DNA from: Gammaproteobacteria bacterium | GTDB lineage: Bacteria > Pseudomonadota > Gammaproteobacteria > SURF-13 | Direction of reading: 5' to 3' | DNA: 62,471 bases | NCBI GenBank assembly: GCA_016195665.1 | Contig: JACPZD010000039.1 | Coordinates: 1 to 62,471 of the forward strand | Shown here: piece after piece, positions 15,381 to 29,700 of the stretch | Numbering within the stretch: the first letter of the stretch is position 1 | Layout of the letters: each line of letters opens with the position of its first letter | The notes under the pieces: generated by a model | What the model was told of the DNA's origin: nothing | The model's input: only the letters and a program-made list of their open reading frames with translations | The model's database searches: none | Position numbers and translations under genes: made by a program

Positions 15381-18134
15381 ATGAGCAAGATCAAACCCCT
15401 GGTATTGATAGACGCCTCGTCTTATCTCTACCGCGCATTTCACGCGCTGCCGCCGTTGATGACCTCGAAGGGTCAGCCGACGGGCGCGGCGTACGGCGTC
15501 ATCAACATGGTGCGCAAGCTGCTGGCCGATTACGACCCCGACTACGTCGCGCTGGTGTTTGACGCCAAGGGCAAGACCTTTCGCGACGACCTCTACCCTG
15601 AATACAAGGCGCACCGGCCCAGTATGCCGGATGATCTGAGCGTTCAGATCGAACCGTTACACGCGATTATACAGGCGCTGGGGTTACCCATGCTCATGAT
15701 AGAAGGCGTCGAGGCCGACGATGTCATCGGCACGCTGGCCGCGCAGGCGGCGGCGCAGGGTATTCCTGCTCTGATATCCACGGGCGACAAGGATATTGCT
15801 CAGCTTGTCAACGAACACGTCACGCTCATCAACACCATGTCGAATCAGGTGCTCGATCCGGCCGGTGTGGAGCAGAAGTTCGGCATTCCACCCAACCTGA
15901 TCGTGGATTATCTCACCCTGGTGGGAGATCCGGTGGACAATGTTCCCGGTGTCGCCAAGGTGGGACCGACGACGGCGGTGAAATGGTTGAAGCAATACGG
16001 CTCGCTCGACAACATCATCGCGCATGCCGGTGAGATAAAGGGCAAGGTCGGCGAGAATCTGCGCGCCGCATTGCCCCAACTGCCCATGTCACGCGAGTTG
16101 CTCATCATCAAATGCGATGTGCCGCTCGCTGTGTCCGTTACCGGTCTTAAGCGGCGTTCCCCGGAACTGGAAACCTTGCGCGAGTGGTATACCCGTCTGG
16201 AATTCAAGGGCTGGCTCAAGGAGTTAGAAAAAGGTGAGGCGTTAGGCGCGAGGGGTGCGGGTGAGGCGTTAGGCGTTAGGCGTGATGACTCCTCACTCCT
16301 CACTCCTCACAGGTTTCAAGCCCCTCACCCCTCACCCGTGCAAATCATCACCAACCCCACGCAGTTCAATGAGTGGTTTGCCAAGCTGGAACAGTCCCCG
16401 CTCATTTGTATAAGTGTACAGACGGACACTGGCGATTACATGCAGGCCAAGATCGTCGGTCTTTCCTTTGCCTGGCCTGATGAGGCCGTTTATATTCCGC
16501 TGGGCCACATTTATGCCGATGCTCCGCAGCAATTGTCGCTGAATGATGTGCTTGAGCGTCTGCGCCCTTTGCTTGAGGACGCAGCATTGCCGAAACTCGG
16601 ACACGATCTCAAATACGCGATGTGCGTGCTGCGCAATCACGGCATCAAGCTCGCGGGCCTTTGTTACGACTCCATGCTGGAGTCCTATGTGCTGGACAGC
16701 ACCGCAACGCGGCATGACCTCGATTCACTCGCCTACAAATATCTCGGCGGCAGGCGTTCCAATTTCGAGGAATTCGCCGGCAAAGGCGCGAAGCAACTTA
16801 GCTACAATCAAATCCCCATCGAACAGGCGGCCGCCCATGCCGCGGAAGACGCCGCGCTTACGTTGCGGCTGCATGAAGTCCTGTGGCCCAGAATCATCGC
16901 GCTGCCCGGCCTGCATAAACTGTACGCCGAGATCGAGATGCCTCTCGCGGCGGTGCTGGCGCGGATGCAACTGAGCGGCGTGCGGATAGACGCCGCGATG
17001 CTGCGCCAGCAAAGCCAGGAACTCGCCGCGCGCTTGCAGGAACTTGAGCGGCAGGCCCACGACGTTGCAGGGCAGCCGTTTAATCTCGGCTCGCCGTTGC
17101 AGATCCAGGAGATTCTCTACGATAAGATGGGTCTGCCGGTGTTGCAGAAGACGCCCAAGGGTCAACCCTCCACCGCCGAGGCGGTGTTGCAGGAACTCGC
17201 CCTGGACTATGCGTTGCCCAAACTCATACTCGAACACCGCGCACTCAGTAAACTCAAATCCACGTACACGGATACGTTGCCCGAGCAAATCAATCCCAGC
17301 ACCGGCCGTATACACACATGCTACCAACAGGCAGTCGCCGCGACCGGCCGGCTTTCGTCCAGCGATCCCAACCTTCAGAATATTCCCATCCGTACCCAGG
17401 AGGGACGGCGTATCCGCCAGGCCTTTACTGCCGAACCGGGTTACAAAATTCTCGCCGCCGATTATTCTCAAATCGAGTTGCGCATCATGGCGCACCTGTC
17501 CGGCGATACGGGGTTGATACGCGCCTTCGCCGAGGCGGCCGACATCCACCAGATCACCGCCGCCGAGGTGTTCGGCGTGCCGCTCGCAGAGGTCAGCACC
17601 GAACAGCGGCGCAGCGCAAAGGCGATCAACTTCGGCTTGATCTACGGCATGTCATCCTTCGGTCTCGCCCGCCAACTCGGTGTGGATCGCGCCGCGGCGC
17701 AGGACTATATTGACCGCTATTTCAGGCGCTACCCCGGCGTGCAGGCCTTCATGGATAAGACTCGCATACAGGCCCGCAAGCTCGGCTATGTCGAGACCCT
17801 GTTCGGCCGCCGTTTGTATCTGCCGGAGATCAACGTGAGCAACGCGCAGCGCCGTCAATACGCCGAGCGCACCGCCATCAACGCCCCCATGCAGGGCACC
17901 GCGGCCGACATCATCAAACTCGCCATGCTGCGCGTGCAGGAGTGGCTGGATAGTGAGGCCTTAGACGCCAGGATGATCATGCAGGTGCACGACGAACTGG
18001 TCTTTGAAGTCGCCGAACAGGCCTTAGAACAGGCCAGAGAGCCGATCCGGCGCTTGATGTCCGAAGTAGCAAAGCTCTCAGTGCCCCTGGTGGTGGATAT
18101 TGGGGTAGGAAATAATTGGGATGAGGCGCATTGA
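15381..18134 (+). CDS. polA: DNA polymerase I, proofreading residues lost
   Basis: 917 residues, the normal length. The 5'-3' nuclease domain (1-280; LVLIDASSYLYRAFHALPPL, EGVEADDVIG, STGDKDIAQLV) and the polymerase domain (about 520-917; DPNLQNIPIR, DYSQIELRIMAHLSGD, MQVHDELVFEV) are intact. In the 3'-5' exonuclease domain the metal ligands are replaced: the E. coli motif FDTETD reads ISVQTD, and LKYDRG reads LKYAMC, so D355, E357 and D424 equivalents are missing. Proofreading should be absent, as in Taq polymerase. The linker at about residues 285-319 is encoded by a GTGAGGC/CCTCAC repeat (16233-16337) with no counterpart in usual PolA. Roles: Okazaki fragment processing and repair. Confidence 0.95.
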   Translation: MSKIKPLVLIDASSYLYRAFHALPPLMTSKGQPTGAAYGVINMVRKLLADYDPDYVALVFDAKGKTFRDDLYPEYKAHRPSMPDDLSVQIEPLHAIIQALGLPMLMIEGVEADDVIGTLAAQAAAQGIPALISTGDKDIAQLVNEHVTLINTMSNQVLDPAGVEQKFGIPPNLIVDYLTLVGDPVDNVPGVAKVGPTTAVKWLKQYGSLDNIIAHAGEIKGKVGENLRAALPQLPMSRELLIIKCDVPLAVSVTGLKRRSPELETLREWYTRLEFKGWLKELEKGEALGARGAGEALGVRRDDSSLLTPHRFQAPHPSPVQIITNPTQFNEWFAKLEQSPLICISVQTDTGDYMQAKIVGLSFAWPDEAVYIPLGHIYADAPQQLSLNDVLERLRPLLEDAALPKLGHDLKYAMCVLRNHGIKLAGLCYDSMLESYVLDSTATRHDLDSLAYKYLGGRRSNFEEFAGKGAKQLSYNQIPIEQAAAHAAEDAALTLRLHEVLWPRIIALPGLHKLYAEIEMPLAAVLARMQLSGVRIDAAMLRQQSQELAARLQELERQAHDVAGQPFNLGSPLQIQEILYDKMGLPVLQKTPKGQPSTAEAVLQELALDYALPKLILEHRALSKLKSTYTDTLPEQINPSTGRIHTCYQQAVAATGRLSSSDPNLQNIPIRTQEGRRIRQAFTAEPGYKILAADYSQIELRIMAHLSGDTGLIRAFAEAADIHQITAAEVFGVPLAEVSTEQRRSAKAINFGLIYGMSSFGLARQLGVDRAAAQDYIDRYFRRYPGVQAFMDKTRIQARKLGYVETLFGRRLYLPEINVSNAQRRQYAERTAINAPMQGTAADIIKLAMLRVQEWLDSEALDARMIMQVHDELVFEVAEQALEQAREPIRRLMSEVAKLSVPLVVDIGVGNNWDEAH
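16233..16337. repeat. GTGAGGCGTTAGGC-type repeat inserted in polA linker
   Basis: Left half made of GTGAGGCGTTAGGCG units, right half of CCTCACTCCTCAC units, so the whole can fold back on itself. It is read through in the polA frame (EALGARGAGEALGVRR then LTPHRFQAPHPSP). Related blocks occur at 21245-21402 and 24995-25048. Confidence 0.75.
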
Positions 18135-18189: not shown

Positions 18190-18316
18190 AGAACTTATCC
18201 ATAAATAATTTACCGCAGAGGGCGCAGAGGAATCAAGAAGGATTTGTTTCTCCTCCGCGTCCTCCGCGGTGAAGCTTTTTCACCGCAAGGGACACAGGGG
18301 AACTATTTATGGATAT
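18190..18316. repeat. CGCAGAGGGCGCAGAGGA-type intergenic inverted repeat
   Basis: TTATCCATAAATAATTTACC at the left and ACTATTTATGGATA at the right are inverted copies. Between them lie ACCGCAGAGGGCGCAGAGGA and CCTCCGCGTCCTCCGCGGTG, also inverted, plus TTTTTCACCGCAAGGGACAC. This motif type is common between genes in many proteobacteria. It separates polA from the delta-60 repeat gene. Confidence 0.65.
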
Positions 18317-18328
18317 GCTCTAAGCCAA

Positions 18329-20284
18329 ATGCCATCACGCTGCTTATCAACTCTTCTGATGCTGACTCTCACTGCGTTGGCGCCATTATGCGCCTACGCC
18401 GCGCCGGGAGATCTTGATCCCTCCTTCGGCAATGGCGGCAAGGTCGTCACTAATTTTTTCGGCAGCTCGGACGAGGCCAATGCAGTGGCCCTGCAGCCCG
18501 ACGGCAAGATTGTGGTGGTGGGGGAGAACGGCACGGACTTTCTGGTGGCGCGTTACAACGCCGACGGCAGCCTGGATTCCAGCTTCGGCACAGGCGGCCG
18601 GGTGACCACCGACTTTGGAGCAGAGGATGTGGCTCAGGCCGTTGCGATTCAGCCAGATGGGAAGATTATAGTAGTAGGCTACACTATTAACGGCAGCAGC
18701 GGTGATTTTGCCCTGGCGCGTTACAACCCTAACGGCAGTCTGGACAGCGGCTTTGGCGGAAGCGGCAAGCTCGTCACTGACTTCGGCGGATACGATCTCG
18801 CCTATGCCGTAGCCCTACAACCGGACGGCAAGCTCATCGCTGGCGGATTATCTACCACTCCCAGTAACCTGGGTGATTTCGCCTTGGTGCGTTATAACCC
18901 GAACGGTACATTGGATTTGAGCTTTGGTGTCGCGGGCCTGCAGAGAACCAGCTTTGGAGCGGTTGAAGTTATTGACGCCTTGGTGCTGCAACCTGACGGC
19001 AAGATTTTGGCTGCGGGGGCTACTGCTACCGTCAGCCTTAGTGACGCCAATTTTGCCCTGGTTCGCTATAACAGTAACGGCACGCTGGACAGCGGCTTCG
19101 GACTCGGCGGCGGCGTCACCACCGACTTCGGCGGTTTCGACGAAGCGGTTGACATCAAACTGCAAGCTGATGGCAAGATTGTCGCGGCGGGTTATTCTGG
19201 CGGTGCGGGAGGAACGTTGGGCAATTTCGCCCTGGCAAGATATACTTCCAGTGGCGGTCTGGATACCAGCTTCGGCACGGGCGGAAAGGTGACAACGGAC
19301 TTTGGCTCCTTCGATGGAGCTGGTAGTCTTATCATTCAACCCGACGGGAAAATTATTGCGGCAGGCGCTACAGGAACCACCACCAACGCCGACTTCGCCT
19401 TGGTGCGTTATAACCTTGACGGGAGTTTGGATACCAGCTTCGGTACCGGTGGCAAGCGCACCACCGACTTTGGACGTATTGATGCCTCGAGAGATGCTGT
19501 CCTGCAACCCGACGGCAAGATGGTCTTGGTAGGCACCAGCTACAATAGCAGCGCCACTGACGGCGACTTCGTCCTAGCCCGTTACCTGGGCGACTCCGGC
19601 CTGCCCCAGCCCGGCTGGTGGTGGAATCCCGACCAGAGCGGCCGCGGCTTCTCTATTGAAGTGCGGGGCAACAACCTGTTCATGGCCGGTTACCTGTATG
19701 CCGATGACGGCCGCGCCACCTGGCTCGTCTCCGGCGGCCCCATGACCAACGTCAGCACCTACAGCGGCCCGCTGCTGGCCTTTGGCAACGGTCAGACCCT
19801 TACCGGCCAATATAAATCCAACACACCAACGGGCTCTGCAGGCACTATCACTCTCCAATTCAGCGATGCCAGCCACGGCACGCTAACCTGGCCGGGCGGG
19901 ACCATGCCCATCGAGCGGTTCCCCTTTGGCTCAGGCTCGCCCAGCTTCCAGCCCGAGTCCGGCTGGTGGTGGAATGAGGCCGAAAGCGGGCGCGGCTTTG
20001 CCATCGAGGTGCAGGGCAATAACCTGTTTATGGCGGGTTATATGTACGATAGCAGCGGAAATCCGATCTGGTATGTCTCGCCAGGCGGCATGACCTCACC
20101 CACGCTCTACCAAGGCAGTTGGCTCCAGTTTGCCAACGGCCAGACCTTGACCGGGGCTTACAAAGCGCCTAGCCAGCCGCCCACTAATGTCGGTGCGGTA
20201 GCATTGCAATTCACCAGCACCACCACGGCCACCCTCACTTTGCCCGATGGAAGGCAAATTCCGCTGACGCGCTTCTTGTTTTAA
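18329..20284 (+). CDS. Secreted delta-60 repeat protein
   Basis: About 652 residues. Signal peptide MPSRCLSTLLMLTLTALA followed by AYA cleavage. Then about eight copies of a 55-residue delta-60 (beta-propeller-like) repeat, recognisable by LDxSFGxGGxVTTDFG, AVALQPDGKIVVVG and FALARYNPNGSLD. The C-terminus holds two copies of another module starting GWWWNxxxSGRGFxIEVxGN and containing LFMAGYxYxxxGxxxWxVS. I chose the internal ATG at 18329 because it begins a clean signal peptide; the open frame extends to 18269 into the upstream repeat. Probably a surface or secreted protein; the function of the repeat is unknown. Confidence 0.82.
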   Translation: MPSRCLSTLLMLTLTALAPLCAYAAPGDLDPSFGNGGKVVTNFFGSSDEANAVALQPDGKIVVVGENGTDFLVARYNADGSLDSSFGTGGRVTTDFGAEDVAQAVAIQPDGKIIVVGYTINGSSGDFALARYNPNGSLDSGFGGSGKLVTDFGGYDLAYAVALQPDGKLIAGGLSTTPSNLGDFALVRYNPNGTLDLSFGVAGLQRTSFGAVEVIDALVLQPDGKILAAGATATVSLSDANFALVRYNSNGTLDSGFGLGGGVTTDFGGFDEAVDIKLQADGKIVAAGYSGGAGGTLGNFALARYTSSGGLDTSFGTGGKVTTDFGSFDGAGSLIIQPDGKIIAAGATGTTTNADFALVRYNLDGSLDTSFGTGGKRTTDFGRIDASRDAVLQPDGKMVLVGTSYNSSATDGDFVLARYLGDSGLPQPGWWWNPDQSGRGFSIEVRGNNLFMAGYLYADDGRATWLVSGGPMTNVSTYSGPLLAFGNGQTLTGQYKSNTPTGSAGTITLQFSDASHGTLTWPGGTMPIERFPFGSGSPSFQPESGWWWNEAESGRGFAIEVQGNNLFMAGYMYDSSGNPIWYVSPGGMTSPTLYQGSWLQFANGQTLTGAYKAPSQPPTNVGAVALQFTSTTTATLTLPDGRQIPLTRFLF

Positions 20285-20377
20285 GGAGGGCTGTGGCCTA
20301 AGTGATTGAAATAAAAGGATTCATAAATCGCGTAATGTCGGAGTGAACTTTTTTGAGGCAGTTTAGTCTTATCCTGT

Positions 20378-20488
20378 GAGCGCTTAGCGCTCCCCGTTTT
20401 CTCCCTAAACGGGTTAATTGTCCGGTGTCCCCCACCCGGACAATTGTTTGGCCCCGGTTCTTCCCCCCTTAGAACCGGGGCTTTTTTT
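20378..20488 (+). ncRNA. Candidate C-rich-loop small RNA at the polA-engB locus
   Basis: Four consecutive perfect hairpins: GAGCGC-TTA-GCGCTC (20378-20392); CCCGTTT-TCTCCCT-AAACGGG (20393-20413); AATTGTCCGG-TGTCCCCCAC-CCGGACAATT (20416-20445); and GCCCCGGTTCT-TCCCCCCTT-AGAACCGGGGC (20451-20481) followed by seven Ts. Three loops are C-rich and could pair with G-rich Shine-Dalgarno regions. E. coli Spot 42, Pseudomonas ErsA and Xanthomonas sX13 occur downstream of polA, and sX13 has three C-rich hairpin loops. I infer an sX13-like regulatory RNA. No clear promoter was recognised; the true 5' end may be up to about 40 bases earlier. A readthrough terminator of the preceding gene is the alternative. 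Confidence 0.6.
20451..20488 (+). terminator. Rho-independent terminator
   Basis: An 11-bp perfect stem (GCCCCGGTTCT/AGAACCGGGGC) with a nine-base C-rich loop and a run of seven Ts. It ends the candidate small RNA and any readthrough from the delta-60 repeat gene. Confidence 0.9.
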
Positions 20489-20490
20489 GC

Positions 20491-20607
20491 TGCGTAGGGA
20501 AGAGCGGCAGCGAAGGGTTCTGCGAATGTCGCGGGCGGTCGCTCTCGGCATCCTGCCTCCCGCGACATTAGTACGTCCCTGTACGTCACAGGACGCGCAG
20601 GAGCGAC
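20491..20607. repeat. Second copy of the nested palindromic element
   Basis: Diverged relative of the 120-bp element at 7401-7520: shares GGGAAGAGCGRCAGCGAAGG, CCTGCCTCCCGCGACATTAG and TCCCTGTACGTCA in the same order, with small indels. Here it is intergenic, between the sRNA/terminator and the 3' end of engB. Confidence 0.75.
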
Positions 20608-20613
20608 GGCCCA

Positions 20614-21243
20614 CTAGAGCTCCAGCCAGCTCGCCAGGCGCTGTTTCGCCTCGTCAATCCCCATTTTCTTTAAGACAGAGAACGCCTGTACTTCAAAAAG
20701 CGGTTGAGATTCAACGCCCTGTTTATCATAGCCGGGATAACGCTGGGTTAAGCCCGCGGTTACATGGCGTAAGGCGAGATGCATGGCGGACCTGCTCAAT
20801 TTATCGGCCTTGCTGAGCAGGATGTAGACCGGCAGCCCCCCCTCGAAACAGGCGTCGAGCCGCTCCAGGTCCGCCGGGGTCATGGGATGGCGGATGTCCA
20901 TGATGAGCACCAGGCCGCACAGCGATTGCCGGCTTGCCAAATACTGCTCCAGGGTATGCGTCCAGTGACGCCGGCTGCGCTCCGGGGCCTTTGCATAACC
21001 ATAGCCGGGGAGGTCCACCAGGCGGCGCTGCGGCCCTAGTTCAAAAAAGTTGAGCTGCTGGGTGCGGCCGGGGGTCTTGCTGACACGCGCCAGCGACTGT
21101 ATCCCGGTGAGGGCGTTGATGGCGCTCGATTTACCCGCATTGGAGCGACCCGCAAAGGCAATCTCCCTCCCGGTATCGGGAGGCGCCTGGGAGAGCGTGT
21201 GAGCGCCGGATATAAAGCGCGCGGCCGGGAAGTGTTGCGGCAT
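20614..21243 (-). CDS. engB: Ribosome-biogenesis GTPase EngB/YihA/YsxC
   Basis: 209 residues, the usual length. The GTPase motifs are present: G1 GRSNAGKSSAINAL, G2 SKTPGRTQQLNFF, G3 LVDLPGYGYAKAP, G4 LLSKADKLS, and a G5-like FSVLKKMG (the usual second serine is valine). EngB is needed for 50S ribosomal subunit assembly. The convergent polA/engB neighbourhood is conserved in many Gammaproteobacteria. Confidence 0.95.
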   Translation of the reverse strand: MPQHFPAARFISGAHTLSQAPPDTGREIAFAGRSNAGKSSAINALTGIQSLARVSKTPGRTQQLNFFELGPQRRLVDLPGYGYAKAPERSRRHWTHTLEQYLASRQSLCGLVLIMDIRHPMTPADLERLDACFEGGLPVYILLSKADKLSRSAMHLALRHVTAGLTQRYPGYDKQGVESQPLFEVQAFSVLKKMGIDEAKQRLASWLEL

Positions 21244-21244
21244 G

Positions 21245-21402
21245 AGTGAGAGGTTAGAAGAAAGTGAGGCGTTAGGCGTTAGAAAAAAGTGAGGCGTGAG
21301 GAGTTAGGCGTAAAGACTGTAAGGCGTGAGGCGTGAGGCGTAAAAAAGCGTCACGCTGCGAAGCTGCGTGTCTCACCCCTCACCCCTCACGTCTCACTCT
21401 CA
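21245..21402. repeat. Long GTGAGGCGTTAGGC/CCTCACCCCTCAC inverted repeat
   Basis: Left arm: repeated GTGAGGCGTTAGGCG and GGCGTGAGGCGTGAGGCG units. Centre: a small GCGTCACGCTGCGAAGC hairpin. Right arm: CACCCCTCACCCCTCACG. Same family as in polA (16233-16337) and in the diguanylate cyclase gene (24995-25048). It fills the space between engB and the cNMP-binding gene. Confidence 0.7.
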
Positions 21403-24418: not shown

Positions 24419-26359
24419 GTGGTGGCCGAAGAGATTGAAAGCATTGCCCGCTGGAAGCAGAAATATTACGACAGCCTGGAGCAGGTCGAGCGTAAGGAAA
24501 AACAATGGTCTGAAGTTGAAGGGCTGCTGCGGCGCTGCATCACCCGCCTCACGATGGTGGCGAGCGGCGACCCCGATCTCAATCAGCAAATAGAAACCTT
24601 GCGTAACGCGATTCGCGACGGCCGTGACAGTCTGGGGCTAAAGAACCTTATCGAACGGCTCGGCGATGCGGTATTGCGGCAGGACCGGCGCGACGGCGCC
24701 GGCAAAAGGTCCGGCCCCGAGCCCGGCGAGGTCTTGCTTGAACTGCTCGACGCGCTCAGTTTCCCGCGGGGCATGGGGAGGAAGGTCAAGGCGCTGCGTA
24801 TGCGCCTGGGCGACAAGGGTGCAAAAAACGACAAGACGTTGCCCAGGGATTTTGCCGAACTGGTGCGCGAGGCCCTTACACTGGCGGCCTCGGAAGGTGC
24901 AGAAGAAATCTCCGAAGGCCGCAAGACAGAACAGCGCACTGACACACCCAAGGCAGGGCTGTTCGGCAGATTGTTCGGCAAGAGCGATGACGTCCCACCC
25001 CTCACCCCTCACGCCTCACCCCTCGCCGCGTCTAGCGCCTCACCCCTCGAGCCGCCCGTTGCGACACCCGCCGCGCCGCCGGTCAAGTCAGCACCTGCGC
25101 CCGATGGCTTTGATCTGATATCAAGGTTGCTGAGCAATCTAACCTTACCGGAGCCCTCACAGCCGCGCCTGGCGATATTAAAGCAGCAGGCCACGGCGGA
25201 CCTCGCCGTGTCGGAGTGGGAGCGCCTTACCGACGATATCGCCGCCCTTATCAGCGCATCGTATCGTCTGCAAAAGCAAGAAGAGCAACCTGTCGAGCAA
25301 CCCACCCCGCTCGCTCTGCATGAGGTGTTGGTGCAATTACTCGAACGGTTGGAAATCACCAGTCAGGACGAGCGCATCGAATCATTAAAGACGCGCCTGG
25401 AGCAGCAAGTCAGCGACGAGGAATTGCCTGAAATACTGGAGACTATCGCCAATCTGGTGGTGGATGAACGCGCCAAAGTTCAGCGCGAAAAACAGGAGAT
25501 CGAGGGTTTCCTCCAACAGCTCACCCAGAGATTGCAAGATCTGGATTCACAATTGCAAGGCAGTGAACGTGTGCGTGTCGAGGCCTTGCACGGTGGGCGT
25601 AAACTGGGTGAGGTGATCCAGGCGCAGGTGCAAGGCATGGCCAGCAATGTGCAGGAGGCCGCCGACCTCGGCCAGCTAAAACTCATGATCGGAGAACGTA
25701 TAGAGGCTATCCACCAGCATCTGAATGAATACCGCCGCGCCGAGGAGCAACGCGCCGAACAGGCCGAATATCACGTTCAGACCCTGACCGAAAAATTGCA
25801 GCACATGGAGCATGAAACCAGCGTGCTACGCTCCCACCTGCAGAAAGAGCATACGCTGGCATTGCTGGATAGTCTGACAGGAATACACAATCGTCTGGCC
25901 TACCGGGAACGGCTGGAGCAGGAATACGCACGCTGGAAGCGCTACCAAACCCCGCTCACGCTGATAGTCTGGGATGTAGACCGCTTCAAGAAAATCAATG
26001 ATACGTATGGCCACAAGTCCGGCGACAAGGCCCTCGTCACCATCGCGCAATTATTCAAGGAGCAGATTCGTGAAGCCGATTTTTTCGCGCGTTACGGCGG
26101 TGAGGAATTCGTTGTCCTGTTGCCGGCTACGCCGCTCGATACCGCAGCGCTGGTCGCCGAGAAGCTGCGCGCCGCCGTTGAAAATTGTCACTTCCACTTC
26201 CGTGACCAGGATGTCCCCATCACCATCTCCGGCGGCCTTGCCCAATGTGCCGCTGACGACACCCCGGAAACCCTGTTCGAACGCGCCGACGCCGCGATGT
26301 ATCGGGCCAAGCGCAACGGCGGAAATCAATGTCTCGAAGAAGAAAAGAAGATTGCTTAG
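24419..26359 (+). CDS. Diguanylate cyclase with long coiled N-terminal region
   Basis: 646 residues. A C-terminal GGDEF domain (about 480-646) has LDSLTGIHNRLAYRERL, WDVDRFKKINDTYGHKSGD and active-site YGGEEF (559-564). The product-inhibition I-site RxxD (READ) lies five residues before GGEEF. The N-terminal part is charged, with coiled-coil stretches (ERKEKQWSEVEGLLRRC; KVQREKQEIEGFLQQLTQRL) and no recognisable membrane helix, so it is probably cytoplasmic. Start GTG 24419 (or 24422) follows AGGAGG. A linker at about 193-210 (VPPLTPHASPLAASSASPL) derives from the CCTCAC repeat at 24995-25048. Expected to make c-di-GMP; a 222-bp copy of its 3' end lies at 29431-29652. Confidence 0.92.
   Translation: MVAEEIESIARWKQKYYDSLEQVERKEKQWSEVEGLLRRCITRLTMVASGDPDLNQQIETLRNAIRDGRDSLGLKNLIERLGDAVLRQDRRDGAGKRSGPEPGEVLLELLDALSFPRGMGRKVKALRMRLGDKGAKNDKTLPRDFAELVREALTLAASEGAEEISEGRKTEQRTDTPKAGLFGRLFGKSDDVPPLTPHASPLAASSASPLEPPVATPAAPPVKSAPAPDGFDLISRLLSNLTLPEPSQPRLAILKQQATADLAVSEWERLTDDIAALISASYRLQKQEEQPVEQPTPLALHEVLVQLLERLEITSQDERIESLKTRLEQQVSDEELPEILETIANLVVDERAKVQREKQEIEGFLQQLTQRLQDLDSQLQGSERVRVEALHGGRKLGEVIQAQVQGMASNVQEAADLGQLKLMIGERIEAIHQHLNEYRRAEEQRAEQAEYHVQTLTEKLQHMEHETSVLRSHLQKEHTLALLDSLTGIHNRLAYRERLEQEYARWKRYQTPLTLIVWDVDRFKKINDTYGHKSGDKALVTIAQLFKEQIREADFFARYGGEEFVVLLPATPLDTAALVAEKLRAAVENCHFHFRDQDVPITISGGLAQCAADDTPETLFERADAAMYRAKRNGGNQCLEEEKKIA
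24995..25048. repeat. CCTCACCCCTCACGC repeat inside the diguanylate cyclase gene
   Basis: Right-arm type units (CACCCCTCACCCCTCACGCC, GCGCCTCACCCCTCGAG) of the family seen at 16233-16337 and 21245-21402, read in-frame as a proline/serine-rich linker. Confidence 0.7.
26090..26311 (+). repeat. 222-bp direct repeat, copy 1 (GGDEF tail)
   Basis: Aligns without gaps to 29431-29652 (constant offset of 3341) with a handful of substitutions. It covers the codons from RYGGEEF to the AMYRAK motif of the diguanylate cyclase. Confidence 0.9.
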
Positions 26360-26441
26360 ATAAGCAACTTATCTACTGTGTCGGGGTATTTTTAAGGGTT
26401 TTTTTATTCGATATGTTTACTATTAATGGAGGATAAGGCAT

Positions 26442-28012: not shown

Positions 28013-29225
28013 GAGACCTCTGAACAACCCCCGTATTTTTGATAGTCGCTGTTGTACAGCGGTAAAAATAGATGTCGCGGGTGATGTTATTTATGTTTTT
28101 GGTTCGGTTTGACCTGTTTTTCCTTTGTTTTACCGGCTTTATCGTCCTTCGCGGACGGATGGCGGGCGCACCTGTCCTACACTGGACACACCATCGACGC
28201 CGCACGCTTGAGATTATATGCCACACACAGCAGGCTCGGGTGCTGGGCATTCTTCTTCAGGCCACGATAACGCACCATCAGCTTGCCGAACGGCTTTTTA
28301 ATCCACGCAAAGGGATGCTCGACCCGCGCGCGGAGTTTTGACTTGACGCGGTTGGCCTGTTTTTGTTCTTCGCTCAACGCCGCCTGACCCCGCACGCGCT
28401 TCTCCACGATACCGTTCTTGATGCCGCGTCCGGCGAGGACTTCATCCACCGCCCGGCTCTTGTACGCGCTGTCCGCATGCACCGCCACCGTCTCGTGGGC
28501 GATGAGCGGTTCAAGCTTCCGGCTGTCGTGGACGTTGGCGGCCGTCGTCTCTTTGTGCGTGATCAATCCGCTGTGATCTACCGCCACGTGCATTTTATAG
28601 CCGTGGGAGGTCTTGCCATTCTTTTTGGTGAAGCCGGCTTCGGGATCGCGCGTGCTGCTCTCGTCTTCTTTCTTGCGGCCCTTGGGCGCCTCCAGGATCG
28701 TGGCATCCACCAGGGCGCCTTGTTTTACCAATACACCCAGTCTATCCAGATGACGGTTGACCACGGCGAACAGGGGGTCCCACGCACCGGCGTCCACCAG
28801 GCTCTTGCGGTACAAGCACACCGTGGTCTCGTCCGGGATCGCTTCATCAAACCCCAAGCCCACAAAGCGCCGGAACGACAGGCGGTCGCGGAGCTGTTCT
28901 TCCATTTGTGGGTCGGATAAGCCATACCACTGTTGCAACAGCATGCAGCGCACCAGTACTTTATGCGGATACCCTGGGGCACCGCCTTTCTGGCGGGGCG
29001 CGTCCCGAAACGACACGATCGCGACGATCTCGTCCCACGGAATCAGCGTCTCGACCCGATCCAGAAACTCCGTGGTGCGGCGTCCCGCCTGGCTCATCAC
29101 CACACTGTCAAACAAGCTGTTCTGGATCGCGTCGCGTCGCATCGGAGACCTCTGATTCATTGGGTTTCTACTGCTTGAAGTATAGTGTACAGTAGTCAAA
29201 AAAGGGGGGGTTTTTCAGAGGTCCC
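28013..29225 (-). mobile_element. IS5-family insertion sequence with TATA target duplication
   Basis: 1213 bp. Terminal inverted repeats: GAGACCTCTGAACAACCCCC at the left and, read inwards from the right, GGGACCTCTGAAAAACCCCC. Both ends are flanked by TATA (28009-28012 and 29226-29229), a likely target duplication. One intact transposase gene fills it. Inserted nine bases after the stop of the AT-rich secreted-protein gene. Confidence 0.9.
28177..29199 (-). CDS. IS5-family DDE transposase
   Basis: 340 residues; the ATG-started core probably begins at MNQRSPMRRDAIQNSLF. N-terminal domain with LIPWDEIVAIV and GAPGYPHKVLVRCMLLQQWY; catalytic Asp in ALVDATILEAPKG, Asp in AVHADSAYKSRA, and Glu in the C-terminal RARVEHPFAWIKKPFGKLMV (Y-R-x-K-E-like signature: RVEHPF/GKLMVRYRG). 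Complete and uninterrupted, so the element may still move. Confidence 0.92.
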   Translation of the reverse strand: MTTVHYTSSSRNPMNQRSPMRRDAIQNSLFDSVVMSQAGRRTTEFLDRVETLIPWDEIVAIVSFRDAPRQKGGAPGYPHKVLVRCMLLQQWYGLSDPQMEEQLRDRLSFRRFVGLGFDEAIPDETTVCLYRKSLVDAGAWDPLFAVVNRHLDRLGVLVKQGALVDATILEAPKGRKKEDESSTRDPEAGFTKKNGKTSHGYKMHVAVDHSGLITHKETTAANVHDSRKLEPLIAHETVAVHADSAYKSRAVDEVLAGRGIKNGIVEKRVRGQAALSEEQKQANRVKSKLRARVEHPFAWIKKPFGKLMVRYRGLKKNAQHPSLLCVAYNLKRAASMVCPV

Positions 29226-29409
29226 TATACATAGCGTCATAAATCTACTGCGCGGCTTTGATGCGGGTGCGTGCGGTGCTCGGAATCCTCATGTACTCTT
29301 ATGTACACTCCGGTTCCTGCGCTCCGCCGCCCCCGCCTGAAATCCGCTCGCTACGATTTCTGTCGCTATGTATAGATACTAAGCATGGACTCAATGAAGG
29401 CGCAGCGAT

Positions 29410-29700
29410 CAATGGACCAATTTCCTGGTTCGTTACGGCGGTGAGGAGTTCGTTGTCCTGTTATCGGCTACGCCGCTCGATACCGCAGCGCTGGTTGCCG
29501 AGAAGCTGCGCGCCGCCGTTGAAAATTGCCACTTCCACTTCCGTGACCAGGATGTCCCCATCACCATCTCCGGCGGCCTTGCCCAATGTGCCGCTGACGA
29601 CACCCCGGAAACCCTGTTCGAACGCGCCGACGCCGCGATGTATCGGGCCAAGAAGCAGGGTGGGAATAAGTGCTTGGCAGAGGAACTGGTTAATAGTTAA
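29410..29700 (+). pseudogene. 3' fragment of a duplicated GGDEF domain
   Basis: In frame with RYGGEEFVVLL and AADDTPETLFERADAAMYRA, ending KKQGGNKCLAEELVNS at 29700. The first 74 codons (29431-29652) are nearly identical to the tail of the intact diguanylate cyclase, while the last residues differ. Upstream, stop codons interrupt the frame and no start exists. It lacks the substrate-binding half of the domain and cannot be active. Confidence 0.88.

Follow-up and report, generated by a model that had tools for sequence, protein, structure and literature searches.

Several bacteria carry a small RNA (sRNA) near polA. Spot 42 lies beside polA in E. coli, and the polA locus of alpha-proteobacteria harbours alpha-r7, an RNA of three hairpins bearing C-rich motifs; the authors who described sX13 had already noted sRNAs with such motifs at this locus in other bacteria (PMC3771888). 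They called sX13 exclusive to the Xanthomonadaceae and saw no resemblance in sequence between it and Spot 42 or alpha-r7 (PMC3771888). The gammaproteobacterial locus analysed here raises the question of whether the gap before engB holds an sRNA of this kind, what would switch it on, and how it is related to the RNAs already named. An earlier note had proposed an sX13- or Spot 42-like RNA at positions 20378-20488 of the window, by which we mean the whole stretch of DNA that was analysed (62,471 nucleotides).

Here we establish by computation the structure, covariation, loop conservation, promoter pattern and locus linkage of this element, together with the presence of rpoE-rseA and hfq in the source genome. 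Positions 20378-20488 very probably encode a regulatory RNA that is switched on by cell-envelope stress. We regard it as likely that this RNA is a trans-acting sRNA of envelope stress, transcribed by sigma-E and using its C-rich loops to pair with ribosome-binding sites rich in G, and that it forms one family with ErsA, sX13 and anti-hemB.

Results

Architecture of the predicted sRNA and its locus

The features of the locus are as follows.

15381-18134, + strand: polA, the upstream neighbour (PF00476 and exonuclease domains)
18269-20284, + strand: gene for a delta-60-repeat (DUF5122) protein, not part of the sRNA (TIGR02608, 381.6 bits; PF17164)
20345-20371, + strand: predicted sigma-E/AlgU-type promoter (GAACTT at 20345-20350, 16-nt spacer, TCTTA at 20367-20371)
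20378-20488, + strand: whole predicted sRNA, about 111 nt (family model R1, 74.3 bits; RF02837, 46.3 bits)
20378-20392, + strand: SL0, the 5' hairpin, 6 bp with loop UUA, starting at the predicted transcription start
20393-20413, + strand: SL1 hairpin, 7 bp with loop UCUCCCU at 20400-20406
20415-20446, + strand: SL2 hairpin, loop region UGUCCCCCAC with a C-rich loop at 20426-20435
20450-20482, + strand: SL3 hairpin, 12 bp including one terminal G-U, loop UCCCCCCUU, C-rich at 20462-20470
20482-20488, + strand: T-run (T7), forming with SL3 an intrinsic terminator (20450-20488)
20614-21243, - strand: engB/yihA/ysxC, the convergent neighbour (TIGR03598 equivalog, 212 bits)

The earlier note had described four adjacent hairpins ending in a T-run, three of them with C-rich loops, and a delta-60-repeat gene between polA and the RNA; folding and the TIGR02608 match bear out all of this at the positions listed. 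When folded, 20378-20500 reaches a minimum free energy of -57.7 kcal/mol, while dinucleotide shuffles give -36.2 +/- 3.5 (z -6.2, 0 of 200 shuffles as stable). The source genome holds a single copy of the sRNA, the runner-up match to R1 (16.6 bits, E 0.7) being at chance level.

Two other parts of the window were recorded in passing. Short degenerate direct repeats (gaggcgtgaggcgt ... cacccctcacccctcacg) lie at 21270-21400, between engB and a gene for a cyclic-nucleotide-binding protein. At 29291-29364 (+) the Rfam family sX9 (RF02228) matches above its cut-off (49.9 versus 44 bits), although its fold beats shuffles by a moderate margin only (z -2.6); this match adjoins an ORF (28177-29199) that by eye is IS5-transposase-like. 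The ORF after the sX9 match (29450-29650, +) repeats, in the same off-frame, a stretch from the end of a GGDEF gene (24419-26359; repeated part 26100-26360, +), as though a piece of that gene had been duplicated beside the transposase.

A family model and its distribution

A scan of engB loci for motifs showed that the promoter and hairpin series are common to many gamma- and beta-proteobacteria, with records from Nitrosomonas, Comamonadaceae, Natronospira and Thiotrichaceae among them. RNAalifold on an unaided MAFFT alignment recovered the terminator stem alone, because loop lengths differ, so a seed blocked by hand and padded with N was used in its place. From this seed of 11 sequences, the window included, a covariance model of SL1-SL3 (R1) was built and searched against 276 genomes drawn evenly across the class. 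It matched in 139 of the 276, representing 112 of 216 genera at about one copy per genome, and had no match in the other half of the sample. The window scored 74.3 bits (E 2.2e-14), being itself a seed. It has the features of the family (three covarying hairpins, CUCCC in the first loop, a C-rich second and third loop, and a terminator) as well as its context, an N16/N17 sigma-E-type box just upstream and engB/polA beside it. Nearly all members, folded singly, give the same architecture from different stem sequences.

The Rfam anti-hemB model (RF02837), which was not trained here, matched 32 of 56 sampled genomes, and 18 of its best 20 matches fell at places found by R1. The weaker matches of the sX13 and ErsA models likewise fell mostly at R1 places. 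Since the three Rfam models mostly converge on the same sites, anti-hemB, sX13 and ErsA seem to belong to a single widespread family.

Some genomes depart from the single copy. Tandem or multiple copies occur in G170 and G263 (family f157; L174, L218) and also in G026, G108, G148, G150 and G248; G170 and G263 carry four copies each, and tandem rows reach up to four at a spacing of about 200 nt. These copies suggest dosage amplification or sibling sRNAs. In two Xanthomonadaceae (L251 and L252, from G259 and G017) a second RNA-like element, its terminator right behind a gene, has two C-rich hairpins with loops containing CCCUCCCC and CCCUCCC and scores 31-32 bits with R1; it may be a two-hairpin paralogue or an unrelated C-rich RNA.

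Covariation of the stems and conservation of the loops

The structure was tested on 110 aligned members. Standard pairs filled 95.3% of pair cells, all 24 of 24 pairs had changed on both sides, and 490 cells held double changes as against 118 in shuffles. Controls in which the partner column was slid paired at 25-53% (50-53% for a slide of one column). Because the alignment had been fitted to the structure, these counts are biased in its favour, yet the gap is still very large. Every helix contributed: helix 1 (SL1) was paired in 97.0% of cells with double changes in 7 of 7 pairs, helix 2 (SL2) in 97.7% with 7 of 7, and helix 3 (SL3) in 92.6% with 10 of 10. The earlier note had set out a check for compensatory changes in the stems of relatives, and such changes are present.

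The loops behave differently from their surroundings. The core of loop 1, CCUCCCU, is 87-100% identical per column, whereas the linkers are near random. A CUCCC-type motif is present in loop 1 of 103 of the 110 members and CCCC in loop 2 of 88, while GGG is almost never found in a loop. Conserved loops carried on covarying stems are what is predicted for an RNA that pairs through its loops. One relative, L003 (G001), lacks CCCC in loop 2 (CCCGGC-ACAA-GCCGGG) but retains the stem together with loops 1 and 3, and so amounts to a naturally occurring mutant of loop 2.

Linkage to polA and engB

The proposal that the sRNA had been kept beside engB agrees with a conserved linkage to engB and polA, 105 of 131 loci adjoining one or both genes. 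In 64 of the 86 genomes that had both a listed match and a listed engB, the best R1 match lay within 1.5 kb downstream of engB, where about 0.04 would be expected by chance (1.5-kb target, genomes of about 3 Mb). Convergence with engB was seen in 61 of these 64, mostly at 140 nt or less.

BLAST with 171 nt returned three close homologues, all from the window's own family. In these the sRNA adjoins a ResB gene (PF05140), engB is not alongside, and polA lies upstream in both of the loci that extend far enough to reveal it. Two further genomes of that family (G002, G004) also have the sRNA before resB. Across the group (G001, G003, G005, G002, G004) it sits downstream of polA or of an inserted gene and faces resB, not engB. 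EngB-like matches in G001 and G003 are weak only, and engB may have been lost from the G001-G005 group or become very divergent.

A conserved predicted promoter of sigma-E type

Upstream of SL0, and absent from the earlier note, is the predicted promoter GAACTT-N16-TCTTA, which has the form of sigma-E/AlgU promoters; it stops 6 nt before SL0. On both strands of the 62-kb window, GAACT-N-N(15-17)-TCNNA has its sole match at 20345-20371. The conservation of this promoter places the predicted start of the transcript near 20378. In the upstream regions of 125 relatives the exact GAACT...TCNNA box occurs with N16 in 63 and with N17 in 10, as against at most 2 for each other spacing from 10 to 23, 0-1 on the reverse strand and 0 in shuffles. 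Allowing one mismatch, an N16/N17 box is found in 103 of the 125, other spacings yielding 4-19 each, and 22 have no recognisable box within that limit. About 9 of the 125 regions belong to seeds picked partly for their promoter, and omitting them alters little; the R1 model itself has no promoter sequence. Where the box is present, the first paired base mostly lies 5-8 nt past the -10 element.

The source genome encodes RpoE (333.8 bits), followed by rseA (PF03872) and an ORF that by eye resembles mucB/rseB; hfq is also present. Upstream of its own rpoE is GAACTA-N16-TCTAT, a box like that of the sRNA.

Discussion

Envelope stress frees RpoE from RseA. RNA polymerase carrying the freed RpoE would then transcribe the sRNA from GAACTT-N16-TCTTA and raise its level, and the RNA's own terminator, read from the sequence as SL3 and the T-run, would end it at about 111 nt. 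The three stem-presented C-rich loops (CUCCCU, CCCCC and CCCCCC) would pair with G-rich stretches of ribosome-binding sites. For the source organism, transcription of 20378-20488, its sigma-E dependence and its targets are all predictions of this kind. Pairing through the loops would repress the translation of target mRNAs, an effect demonstrated for sX13 (PMC3771888).

The hairpins might instead form a terminator array that ends the upstream genes and shields the convergent engB, with no functional independent RNA. SL3 and its T-run do make a good terminator, and the surrounding genes are convergent; an array, however, could do without a conserved single-stranded CCUCCCU loop, two extra covarying hairpins and a promoter of fixed N16 spacing, and the homologues from other genera are sRNAs that are expressed (PMC3771888, PMC7565897, PMC5688073). 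We think an array very unlikely. Still harder to credit is that the RNA mainly sequesters an RNA-binding protein rather than pairing with mRNA. Repeated similar loops and the tandem copies, four each in G170 and G263, resemble the layout of a sponge RNA, but the loops are C-rich and not GGA as CsrA needs, and sX13, whose loops are alike, targets mRNAs at G-rich motifs (PMC3771888).

A different doubt concerns the promoter, since a box match does not prove use. If a C-rich sRNA were transcribed mainly by another sigma factor, it would be no envelope-stress RNA in the source organism; in three genomes of one family (G014, G163, G258) the box is missing and sigma-70-like hexamers can be made out by eye. 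A scan for sigma-70 promoters near the window RNA found no such site, however, and the box there is exact, well spaced, unique in 62 kb and common to the region upstream of rpoE. This possibility therefore seems unlikely to us, and we retain the sigma-E-transcribed, mRNA-pairing sRNA as the preferred reading.

By position and structure the window RNA corresponds to ErsA, sX13 and anti-hemB, as a member of an old family that spans gamma- and beta-proteobacteria. More tentatively, and with less than even confidence, we suggest an ancestral gammaproteobacterial sigma-E sRNA (beta included), kept beside engB since the common ancestor, of which ErsA, sX13 and anti-hemB would be descendants. Spot 42 would be a derived occupant of the slot with changed promoter and pairing sequence, the enteric sigma-E role having moved to MicA, RybB and MicL. 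In the open-access literature, no paper that we found connects sX13 with ErsA or reports a shared promoter. The joining of the sRNA families and their common sigma-E box appear to be new; the single RNA adds one more example to a kind already known. Three sRNAs, from Pseudomonas, Xanthomonas and Burkholderia, that are catalogued as separate and lineage-specific appear to be parts of one family with a common locus and stress promoter, so that findings on targets or regulation from one genus could be tested in others. A further question can also be put to the test: what sRNA did the sigma-E response use beyond the enterics, in bacteria that lack MicA and RybB?

Comparison with known sRNA families

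In covariance searches against Rfam, similarity to sX13 is detectable, but the window RNA falls below the cut-offs of sX13, Spot 42 and ErsA. Its nearest families are, in order, anti-hemB, sX13 and ErsA, and because it misses every Rfam cut-off it is not filed under any Rfam family.

Anti-hemB (RF02837) matches over its full length, 1-81, at 46.3 bits (E 6.6e-10), short of the gathering score of 49.5. This RNA, also known as Burkholderia RNA 7, was detected as the transcript ncS04 (PMC5688073). Like the window RNA it has C-rich loops, CUCCCU in hairpin 1 and a terminator hairpin, and the window RNA shares its C-rich loop hairpin and terminator beside engB. Members above the cut-off (L042, L051, L023) lie beside engB with a GAACTT-N16/17 promoter as in the window, and two gamma-proteobacterial members of the R1 family (L120, L129) pass the anti-hemB cut-off. 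The beta copies examined differ in that the middle hairpin lacks a CCCC loop.

With sX13 (RF02232) the score is 37.6 bits against a gathering score of 50. Both RNAs have three hairpins with C-rich apical loops downstream of polA, one unrelated gene intervening in the window. Three features set sX13 apart from the window RNA: its 5' part is unstructured, engB is not its neighbour, and its sigma-E-like box is no more than a degenerate GAACC...TCTATA or GTTATA. R1 locates sX13 at exactly its coordinates with a weak 26-28 bits, the best match in its loci. In X. campestris pv. vesicatoria sX13 is flanked by polA and a hypothetical gene, not by engB; it accumulates at high salt and 37 C, and its C-rich loops act on G-rich mRNA targets without need for Hfq (PMC3771888). 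The earlier idea of an sRNA with C-rich loops in the polA-engB slot is strongly supported; what needs correcting is the placing of sX13 itself beside engB.

Spot 42 (RF00021) shares location alone: membership was rejected at 17.3 bits against a gathering score of 80 (E 0.58, chance level), with no sequence evidence of kinship, and the likeness claimed in the earlier note is positional only. The class survey held no Spot 42 above the cut-off, its draw having few taxa that carry it. In E. coli Spot 42 is Hfq-dependent and CRP-controlled. Alpha-r7 (RF02342) reached 26.5 bits against a cut-off of 60.

ErsA (Pseudomon-1, RF01719) gives 26.7 bits with the window RNA, where the gathering score is 50, and 19 bits with R1, weak and yet the best match in its locus. 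It shares with the window RNA the polA-engB region, a C-rich terminator loop and a promoter sequence of sigma-E type; a bona fide ErsA (L260, 121 bits with RF01719) has GAACTT-N17-TCATA upstream. It differs in its 5' half, in having no CCUCCCU hairpin, and in a U-rich unstructured domain that pairs with anr. ErsA is sited in the polA-engB region, and its activation of anr needs Hfq (PMC8575079). In P. aeruginosa ErsA is strictly sigma22-dependent (PMC7565897), and it is this dependence that anchors the sigma-E control predicted for the window RNA.
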